From: Helicobacter pullorum NCTC 12824
GTDB taxonomy: Bacteria; Campylobacterota; Campylobacteria; Campylobacterales; Helicobacteraceae
Assembly: GCF_017979475.1 (NCBI RefSeq)
Contig: NZ_JAERIT010000004.1
Location: 1-64,000 of the forward strand
Length of the DNA stretch: 64,000 nucleotides
Direction of reading: 5' to 3'
Below, one piece after another: positions 813 through 7,298 of this stretch. The notes beneath the pieces were generated by a model. The model searched no databases, had not been told where the DNA came from, and saw nothing but the letters and a program-made list of their open reading frames with translations. Positions within the stretch are counted from its first letter, which is position 1. Each line of letters opens with the position of its first letter. Both the position numbers and the translations under genes were made by a program.

Positions 813-1859
813 TTAGGAAATGTTTAGTGGGAAGTTGTCAGCTGGTAGAACTTCTCCGATGATTTGTGCATAGGTAACACCCTCATTTTTGAGTTCATTA
901 AGCAATTCTTGGGCTTGATTTTGTGGAGTGGCAAACACTAAACCGCCGGAAGTTTGTGCATCAAAAAGTAGAATTTCTAAATTTTGGTAGATTGAATTAG
1001 GAGTGAGTTTAAAATGGCAGTGTTTGGCAATGGCTTTTTGGTTAGAATGGCTGCCGCCGGGGATAATCCCCATTTGTGCAAACTCTATGGCTTCTTGTAA
1101 GAGGGGAATTTGATTAGAATAAAGATGAAGTGAAATAGAGGGGTTTGTCATTTCGTATAAATGCCCCAAAAGTCCATAGCCTGTAATATCGGTGCAAGCG
1201 TGAATGGTGTATTTGGAGGCGATTTTGGCGGCTTTTTGGTTGAGTGTTGCCATAATCTCTGAAATTTTGACTTGAGTTGGAGAATCTAGCATATCTGCTT
1301 TGAGGGCAGTTGTCAAAATACCCATTCCAATGGGTTTAGTCAAGATTAGCACATCGCCTATTTGAGCGGTATTGTTGTGCCAAATTTTTTGAGGGTGAAT
1401 GATGCCTGTAACGCTTAAACCATATTTTTGTTCTTTATCAGCAATTGTGTGCCCGCCAAGTAAGACACCGCCAGCTTCTTTGATTTTGGATAATCCCCCT
1501 TCTAAAATAGCTTCTATCATTTGAGAATCCAAATGGCAATTATCCCACATTAAGAGATTTAGAGCGGTTTTGACTTCTCCCCCCATTGCATAAATGTCGC
1601 TTAGGGAATTTGCTGCTGCAATTTGTCCATAAGTGTAAGGATCATTGACAAGTGGCGTAATGAAATCTGCACTTTGTACAATTGCAAGTTCATCGCTGAT
1701 TTTATAGATTCCGGCATCTTCGTTTCCGCTGAAACCAACAAGGATATTTGAATCTTTGTTGTTTTTGAGTTTGCAAGAGAGATGTGATAGGTCTTCCAGA
1801 CCTACTTTTGCAGCTCAACCAGCGGACTGGACAAAATGGGTGATTTTTATATTTTCCAT
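813..1859 (-). CDS. selD: Selenide, water dikinase SelD, selenocysteine-containing (UGA codon 15)
   Basis: SelD makes selenophosphate from selenide and ATP, the selenium donor for selenocysteine and tRNA selenouridine. The frame open from 1586 lacks the N-terminal ATP-binding part. Reading upstream through an in-frame TGA at 1815-1817 restores it: ATG at 1859, N-terminus MENIKITHFVQSAG, Sec15, then AAKVG, continuing to GFSGNEDAGIYKI, SADFITPLVNDPYTYGQIAAAN and SDIYAMGG. The TGA falls where SelD proteins carry the catalytic Cys/Sec, followed three residues later by the essential Lys (Lys18). Total length 348 residues, normal for SelD. A 7-bp hairpin follows the TGA directly. Selenoprotein SelD is known in Campylobacter relatives. 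MnmH, another selenophosphate consumer or partner, lies at 6291-7298. Conventional gene calling will give a 257-residue truncated product. Confidence 0.93.
1788..1804 (-). promoter_or_regulatory. Putative bacterial SECIS hairpin in selD
   Basis: In the selD mRNA, TAGGTCT and AGACCTA form a perfect 7-bp stem around a GGA loop, beginning 10 nt after the UGA codon (1815-1817). A stem-loop at this position, with a GGUCU-type sequence near its tip, fits the bacterial SECIS element bound by SelB. Sequence and placement are seen; SelB binding is inference, and alternative pairings that leave GGUCU unpaired are possible. Confidence 0.65.
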
Positions 1860-5192: not shown

Positions 5193-6287
5193 TTATTGTT
5201 TGGAATTAATATGGATAAGCACACCTTCTAAAATCGCATCAATATCTCCATCCAAAATCGCTTCAACATTGCTATAAGCGATATTGGAGCGTAAATCTTT
5301 AATTTGCTGATAAGGTGCAAGCACATAAGAGCGGATTTGATGTCCCCAGCCAATCTCACTTTTGTCATCATTAGAGGTTTGCTCATTGCGTTTTTGTGCT
5401 TCAAGTTCATAGAGTTTGGATTTTAGCATTTTTAATGCAGTTGCTTTGTTTTTGTGCTGGCTTCTATCATTTTGGCATTGCACTACTATTCCTGTTGGGA
5501 TATGGGTAATACGGATTGCAGATTCTGTTTTGTTGATATGCTGTCCCCCAGCACCGCTAGCACGATAAGTATCAATGCGTAAATCTTTTTCTTCAATTTC
5601 AATTTCAATATTATCGTCAATTTCGGGTGTTACTTGCACGGATGCAAAGCTTGTGTGCCTTTTGGCATTAGAATCAAAAGGCGAGATTCGCACAAGCCTG
5701 TGTATTCCATTTTCGACTTTAGCATAACCATAAGCGTTTTCGCCCTTGATAATAAAGCTTGCATCTTTGATTCCTGCTTCATCGCCTTCTTGATAATCCA
5801 AAAGCTCTACTTTAAAACCTCTTCTTTCTGCCCATCTTAGATACATACGATAAAGCATACTTGCCCAATCTTGAGATTCTGTCCCCCCAGCTCCGGGAGT
5901 GATGGTAAAAATTGCATTATTAGAATCTAGCTCATCGCTCAACATAACTTCAATTTCAGCTTTTTTAATCTGCTCTTCTAGGGAATTTGCTTCACTAAAA
6001 AGCTCATTTAGGGTTTGTTCATCATCGCTTGAAATCTCAAAAAGCTCTTTTGCGTCATTTAATGCAAGATTAGCTTCTTGGAATTTTTCTAGTTGCCTCT
6101 CACAGCGTTTTTTTTCTTTTTGATATTCCCCTGCTTTTTTGGAATCTTCCCAAAATTCTTTTTGTTGCTCTAGGGTTTCAATCTCTTTTATTCTAGATTC
6201 AAGTTTGCTTGGTTGCATAATTTTTTCAATATTTTGTCGCTTTATTTCTAGCTCTTTGAGTAATTCTCCATATTCATAACTATCCAA
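5193..6287 (-). CDS. prfB: Peptide chain release factor 2
   Basis: Class I release factor recognising UGA and UAA. The 364-residue protein has an N-terminal coiled-coil domain (to about 110), the SPF stop-codon anticodon motif at 202-204 (RISPFDSN), which marks RF2 rather than RF1, and the catalytic GGQ at 247-249 in [13 protein letters not shown]. The frame is continuous from ATG 6287: there is no programmed +1 frameshift near codon 25 as in E. coli. This matters here because the genome also decodes a UGA as selenocysteine in selD. It starts 3 bp after mnmH and is probably cotranscribed with it. Confidence 0.96.
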
Positions 6288-6290
6288 GTT

Positions 6291-7298
6291 TTATTCCTTT
6301 ATTTTATAAAATTCTTTTGCAAATGCCTTGATTTCTTCGATAACTTGTGTGGTATTTTGGTAGTAAATCACACTTTTAAAAGATTCTTTTTTATACACTT
6401 TATCATAATATTCTACAAGCAAAATTTCTGCAACTTTTTGTAAATCTCTTCGCAAAAAGGCTTCTTGTGCTTCTTGCCAAAATTGTTTTTTCATAAAAGG
6501 TGCTATTTTTTGCATAGAATTTTTGAAAAAATCTTGTGAAATTTTACCATATTGTGCAACGATTCTTTGGATTCTTTGTTCTAGAGGCGAGAGTATTAGG
6601 ATTTTGGGTGCATTGTGGTAGGATTGATAAAGTGGGCTTGGCAAAATTAAATTTCCAAGTTTTTTGCTTTCTCCCTCTACTAAAACAAAAGGGGAATTTG
6701 TGAGGGATTTTAGGCGTTCAAATAATAGGTTTTGAAACATTTTAACACTGGGTTGCATTCCATAAATCCCACCAAAGCTTGAACCTAAATGTCTAGCAAT
6801 CCCCTCAATATCCAAAGAATCATCAAAGGCGTGGATTATTTCACTTTTGCCGCTGCCTGTTGGTCCTATGAGTGTGATGAAATTGTGGTTTGGCTTATCT
6901 TGCAGTGTTTGGGTTACTTCTGTGCGATAGGATTTGTAGCCACCTTTTAAAACAACTACACGATAACCGATATTTTTTAGGACGATTCCAAAAGAGTTGC
7001 TTCGCATTCCGCCTCTAGCACAATAAATGCCAAAAGGGCGGGCTGGAGTGATTTGATGTTTTAAATTTAAGAGGTGGTGAGAGATATTTTTGCAAACAAA
7101 ACTTGCTCCAAGGATTTTGGCATTAAAAGAATCTTTTTTGTAAAGTGTGCCAATTTGTTGGAATTCCTCATCATTTAAAACAGGGAAGTTTATAGCATTG
7201 GGGATATGAGAGTGTTCGTATTCTTTGGGTGAGCGAACATCAATGATAGTGGAAAATTTTTGTGCAAGAAAGTCATCAATGGGTAGGGTTTGATTCAA
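6291..7298 (-). CDS. mnmH: tRNA 2-selenouridine synthase
   Basis: Replaces sulfur by selenium at the wobble thiouridine of certain tRNAs through a geranylated intermediate, using selenophosphate from SelD. The 335-residue protein has an N-terminal rhodanese domain with the catalytic-loop motif IYCARGGMRS (Cys93) and a P-loop domain with GPTGSGKS at 145-152. The start is TTG at 7298: AAGGA lies 8 nt upstream, and the next ATG would remove the rhodanese N-terminus. Having both SelD and MnmH shows the cell makes selenophosphate. A divergent promoter region separates it from glnK. Confidence 0.93.
   Translation of the reverse strand: MNQTLPIDDFLAQKFSTIIDVRSPKEYEHSHIPNAINFPVLNDEEFQQIGTLYKKDSFNAKILGASFVCKNISHHLLNLKHQITPARPFGIYCARGGMRSNSFGIVLKNIGYRVVVLKGGYKSYRTEVTQTLQDKPNHNFITLIGPTGSGKSEIIHAFDDSLDIEGIARHLGSSFGGIYGMQPSVKMFQNLLFERLKSLTNSPFVLVEGESKKLGNLILPSPLYQSYHNAPKILILSPLEQRIQRIVAQYGKISQDFFKNSMQKIAPFMKKQFWQEAQEAFLRRDLQKVAEILLVEYYDKVYKKESFKSVIYYQNTTQVIEEIKAFAKEFYKIKE

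Follow-up and report, generated by a model that had tools for sequence, protein, structure and literature searches.

An in-frame UGA in the selD gene of Helicobacter pullorum NCTC 12824 and its predicted reading as selenocysteine

The selD locus and its in-frame TGA

The window analysed here is a stretch of 64,000 nucleotides from Helicobacter pullorum NCTC 12824 (contig NZ_JAERIT010000004.1, positions 1 to 64,000), and all plain positions below refer to it. On its minus strand, at 813-1859, lies a selD gene for selenide, water dikinase (selenophosphate synthetase), with a product of 348 amino acids when a UGA is taken as selenocysteine (Sec). The frame opens with an ATG at 1859, runs through 14 sense codons to a TGA at 1815-1817, continues for 333 sense codons and closes with a TAA ending at 813, which is the layout given by the first-pass annotation. 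Since a TAA also stands in frame immediately 5' of the ATG, no start further upstream in that frame is possible. The TGA is codon 15, the predicted selenocysteine of the motif A-G-U-A-A-K; the N-terminus reads MENIKITHFVQSAG, then the TGA, then AAKVGLEDL, so that the third residue past the TGA is Lys. A standard frame finder applied to this region returned only a 257-residue open reading frame (ORF) (813-1586, minus strand), the product to be expected from a standard gene caller if UGA is a stop, and this agrees with the earlier prediction that automatic annotation would report a truncated protein of that length.

With the UGA read through, the protein matches the equivalog model TIGR00476 from profile position 2 to 310 (of 311) at 355 bits, over its curated cut-off of 125; its score for another SelD model, NF002098, lies just below the cut-off (296.2 against 299). 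The 257-residue ORF scores 233.1 bits against TIGR00476 and covers positions 91-310 only. The whole SelD profile is thus spanned only when the UGA is read through, which supports the reading of the gene as a Sec-type selD, and the N-terminal segment is indeed recovered in no other way, as had been claimed. A phmmer search against solved SelD chains matched 2yye (1.8e-63) and 3u0o (1.1e-59), which we take to come from Aquifex and Escherichia coli, respectively. U15 and K18 of the segment U15-A-A-K18 align with a Cys and a Lys in both chains, presumably the catalytic residues, and this places the TGA where the first reading had put it. Because U was entered in the search as Cys, the alignment is carried by the flanking residues and not by U15 itself. 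The protein resembles the Cys-type 3u0o as a member of the same enzyme family by sequence, and differs from it in having a predicted Sec in place of the catalytic Cys, followed by A-A-K here and by G-C-K there.

Adjoining selD on the plus strand (1956-2727) is a transporter gene that we assign, as an assumption, to the TauE/SafE family. It appears frameshifted near its start, at about 2005: in the present assembly the ATG at 1956 is out of frame with the remainder of the coding sequence, while the matching 150 bases form an open frame in all five relatives checked. Further along the window, mnmH (6291-7298, minus strand) encodes a tRNA 2-selenouridine synthase, a second enzyme that uses selenophosphate, with 359.5 bits against NF008750 (cut-off 241) and 312.8 bits against TIGR03167 (cut-off 219.75). 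Beside it, the ORF at 5193-6287 on the minus strand may encode peptide chain release factor 2, to judge by resemblance. This factor competes with Sec insertion at UGA.

Selenocysteine machinery, conservation of the TGA and the downstream hairpin

The first-pass annotation had named the absence of selA, selB and selC as the result that would overturn its reading, and all three were found in the genome. A selA gene (430.4 bits) lies on contig C20 at 89943-91013, selB (319.7 bits, cut-off 242.25) follows at 91081-92883 of the same contig, and a tRNA-Sec with a UCA anticodon, recognized by ARAGORN and scoring 49.9 bits (gathering score 47), is located at 2060-2151 of C20. It is the only tRNA-Sec among the five matches examined by ARAGORN, out of nine in this genome, the other four being below the cut-off. 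The remaining four examined were rejected as a tRNA-Leu (L008), two clusters of Gly, Leu, Cys and Ser tRNAs (L009, L010) and a tRNA-Trp (L011). A missing Sec machinery is therefore ruled out, and the genome is confirmed to hold the complete Sec gene set (selA, selB, selC and selD) together with mnmH.

The TGA is widely conserved in the family. At a threshold of E <= 1e-30, 83 of the 121 family genomes sampled have a SelD match, and a TGA occurs in 82 of these 83, its exact position having been read in 34 (the present genome included; 29 aligned loci plus G010, G030, G034, G085 and G088) and its presence taken from the count of TGA codons in the other 48. Exactly one TGA lies inside the match in 79 of the 83. 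Four relatives appeared to have none, and three of them (G034, G085 and G088) carry it on direct reading of the DNA, their matches starting 3' of the site; only G120 has a TGT (Cys) there. The three closest full-length relatives, 86-87% identical, have the TGA, and TGA-bearing relatives extend down to 46% protein identity. A contig scan with SelD gave two distant relatives at 45-46% identity, which enter none of these comparisons. In the 29 sequences read at this site, conservation extends to the codons 5' of the TGA. A UGA at the site of a Cys in homologues, as expected of a bacterial selenoprotein, is thus what we observe, given the TGT of G120 and the Cys of 3u0o.

A selA match (E <= 1e-30) was found in 79 of the 82 genomes with a TGA-bearing selD, including two poor ones, a fragment in G004 (positions 53-187) and an interrupted gene in G010. 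The three others, G030, G116 and G119, have completeness values of 89, 61 and 58%; tRNA-Sec is present in G030 and G116 and selB is over its cut-off in G030, while in the 58% complete G119 none of selA, selB and tRNA-Sec was found. The converse, a selA match with no selD match at these thresholds, occurs in 15 of the 121 genomes, and selA without selD has been reported for H. pylori and H. acinonychis (PMC4607533).

Three relatives deserve separate mention. In G120, which we would guess to be a Wolinella, hairpin-capable letters (AGGTCC-GGG-GGACCT) can still be seen by eye downstream of the TGT (L042 / L066), the minimum-energy fold of a 58-nt stretch favours another structure (z -0.11), and selA, selB, tRNA-Sec and a TGA-bearing formate dehydrogenase copy are retained. 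In G010 (L063, L064) the selD TGA and tRNA-Sec are present, selA is in two pieces in different frames, the selB match is confined to positions 2-199 of 581, and SelD seems to be frameshifted at its C-terminus; either the Sec trait is decaying in this genome or the assembly is rich in errors. The selD of G034 (L062) has the TGA and shows a frame change near the conserved AKGGA segment.

Closely 3' of the selD UGA lies a SECIS-like hairpin, AGGUCU-GGA-AGACCU (1789-1803, minus strand), with a stem of six pairs and a GGA loop beginning 17 nt past the UGA. Its anatomy, with a G in the loop, is that of a bacterial SECIS element, and SelB is predicted to bind it. All 29 aligned sequences have G as the first letter of the loop (column 27), and RNAalifold selects the identical stem. 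Across the 29 sequences, 97.7% of the 174 stem cells are paired, a share that falls to 27-55% when the partner strand is slid by one to three columns. Shuffling letters within columns leaves 96.3% paired, with 2 of 500 shuffles reaching the observed value. Double-sided changes occur in two of the six pairs, in one cell each (2/174), a level attained by 9 of 500 shuffles; the covariation score was reached by none of 500, and further pair types were not exceptional in number (173/500). Single-sequence folding energies are mildly better than those of shuffles (z -1.0 to -2.5), and searching the window against Rfam, at gathering thresholds, gave a tRNA only. As the stem lies within strongly conserved codons, mostly those for G-L-E-D, its conservation may be largely driven by the protein. 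The hairpin is therefore good but not independent support for the Sec reading.

A probable selenocysteine-type SelD and the alternatives

What the sequence itself shows is the TGA and where it stands, the genes of the Sec machinery, and the hairpin together with its conservation. On these grounds we are nearly certain that this selD encodes a SelD with selenocysteine as catalytic residue 15, and the proposal that it is a selenoprotein is well supported at the sequence level by the TGA in 82 of the 83 family genomes with a SelD match, the Sec machinery, the Cys of G120 and the SECIS-like hairpin. Judging from the known pathway, SelB carrying Sec-tRNA(Sec) would bind the hairpin just 3' of the UGA, so that Sec would be inserted there instead of termination. 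The resulting Sec-SelD would make selenophosphate, used in turn by SelA to produce the Sec-tRNA required for SelD itself, for a formate dehydrogenase and for a DUF466 protein, and by MnmH to produce 2-selenouridine in tRNA. SelD synthesis would accordingly depend on its own product: SelD needs Sec and Sec needs SelD, as follows from the logic of the pathway. The self-dependence loop of the first-pass annotation thus holds as logic; it is neither new nor absolute. The dependence need not be strict, because natural Cys-SelD exists in G120 and in the chain 3u0o, and SelD can function with Cys (PMC4607533).

Three other readings of the UGA were weighed. A nonsense mutation could have turned the gene into a pseudogene, or the TGA could be a sequencing error for TGC or TGT; the apparent frameshift of the adjoining transporter gene shows that local errors or decay exist, and the completeness of the genome is estimated at 93.25%. 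Against this, the remainder of the selD frame is open, the Sec machinery is present, and the same codon recurs in 82 of the 83 genomes with a SelD match, among them the three closest full-length relatives and others down to 46% identity, which makes chance or error very unlikely; we give this reading next to no credence. It is equally hard to credit that translation truly stops at the UGA and that the 257-residue ORF gives a working product devoid of the catalytic segment. That ORF does have an ATG start and its 233.1-bit match to TIGR00476, but its product would be without the catalytic residue and the Lys, the stretch from the UGA to 1586 is conserved as SelD protein, and so are the codons 5' of the TGA in the 29 sequences read.

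Insertion of an amino acid other than Sec, by natural suppression or by reassignment of UGA, for example to Trp, is extremely improbable as well. We found no point in its favour, and the tRNA-Sec (UCA), SelA and SelB are present, while the solved chains, like G120, have Cys at the homologous residue. The Sec reading of selD leaves room for a further idea, that the UGA has been kept in nearly the whole family as a selenium-sensing switch, with which the evidence is compatible and which we consider unlikely. If it were true, selenium shortage would lead to a stop at codon 15, SelD would fall, and Sec and selenouridine synthesis would both shut down, whereas in the presence of selenium the loop would be self-reinforcing.

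Sec-type SelD proteins, with SECIS hairpins, have been described in Epsilonproteobacteria including Helicobacter (Cravedi et al. 2015, PMC4607533), and their publication for both Helicobacter and Campylobacter there bears out the earlier remark that SelD selenoproteins are known among Campylobacter relatives. The present gene shares with them, as they are described in that work, the UGA-encoded Sec, a SECIS a few nucleotides downstream with the invariant G in its apical loop, and the co-occurrence with selA, selB, selC and often mnmH; relative to that description it differs in nothing of substance and adds one more species. Campylobacter jejuni likewise has a Sec-type SelD (Shaw et al. 2012 as cited in PMC4607533); its selD is cited as starting at a rare CUG codon, whereas an ATG (1859) is available here. 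Sec-SelD is listed for 383 organisms, second to FdhA (PMC5029168, Table 3), and among bacterial selenoprotein families SelD ranks second in frequency (PMC5029168, PMC13188914). The finding is thus correct but ordinary, the trait being published and widespread among bacterial relatives. Its practical weight lies in annotation: if the UGA is not recoded, selD is cut short, the catalytic segment is lost, and an enzyme of selenium metabolism looks broken. Such truncation extends beyond SelD, for PMC4607533 reports 40 additional selenoprotein genes, most of them truncated in GenBank.

UGA genes beyond selD

The genome has at least three UGA genes, namely selD, a formate dehydrogenase and a DUF466 gene. 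In this it differs from H. mustelae, for which SelD is given as the sole selenoprotein (PMC4607533). The formate dehydrogenase is a molybdopterin oxidoreductase (PF00384, 160.9 bits) whose one in-frame TGA is flanked as DHCARV-TGA-HSPTVAG. Against TIGR01553, the model for formate dehydrogenase alpha, it scores 221.7 bits over positions 3-306, short of the cut-off of 814.2, and we take it to be FdhA from this match and from its motif. The stretch 3' of its TGA folds no better than shuffled sequences (z 0.69 and -1.28). At a threshold of 1e-60, TIGR01553 matched 60 of the 121 family genomes, each with at least one TGA copy, and TGA is present in 61 of the 65 matches, none of which attains the curated cut-off and which extend over roughly the first 300 of 1009 positions. 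Genomes missed by this search say nothing about absence, because the score of the H. pullorum gene itself (4.6e-66) is too near the threshold.

The third gene encodes a DUF466/Sel_put protein (L059, 1474-1720; contig C21, about 178,010-178,260; PF04328, 72.8 bits, cut-off 25), whose coding sequence ends in K-C-TGA-TAA. Its 3' untranslated region contains a hairpin, CATAA-GGT-TTATG, with the loop 17 nt past the TGA, the same distance as in selD, and a folding z of -1.60. Of 19 genus genomes, 17 have Cys as the last sense codon, with TGA and a further stop behind it; in two of the 17 (L081, L090) that further stop is another TGA. The hairpin pattern was matched in 16 of these 17, with the loop 15-17 nt past the UGA, and the seventeenth (L093) has a similar 3' sequence missed by the pattern. 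Only the outer and second pairs constitute a test, as the inner letters are fixed by the pattern; among the 16, C-G forms the outer pair in 15 and the second pair in 11, T-A replaces it in one and five, respectively, and neither pair is ever unpaired. The protein is likely to carry a C-terminal selenocysteine, and as a third UGA gene it supports Sec decoding in the genus. DUF466 as a selenoprotein with a terminal Sec has already been published (PMC4607533; "KCU-star" in PMC13188914).

In two genomes of the genus, G072 and G065 (L096, L097), the DUF466 protein ends in Cys-Cys-TAA, with TGT in place of TGA. A non-coding 3' hairpin, CGATAA-GT-TTATCG, persists in both and has its own compensatory change; it is either what remains of a SECIS or a structure with a different role. 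The survival of this hairpin beyond the change from UGA to UGU is, in our view, more striking than the Sec-SelD itself.
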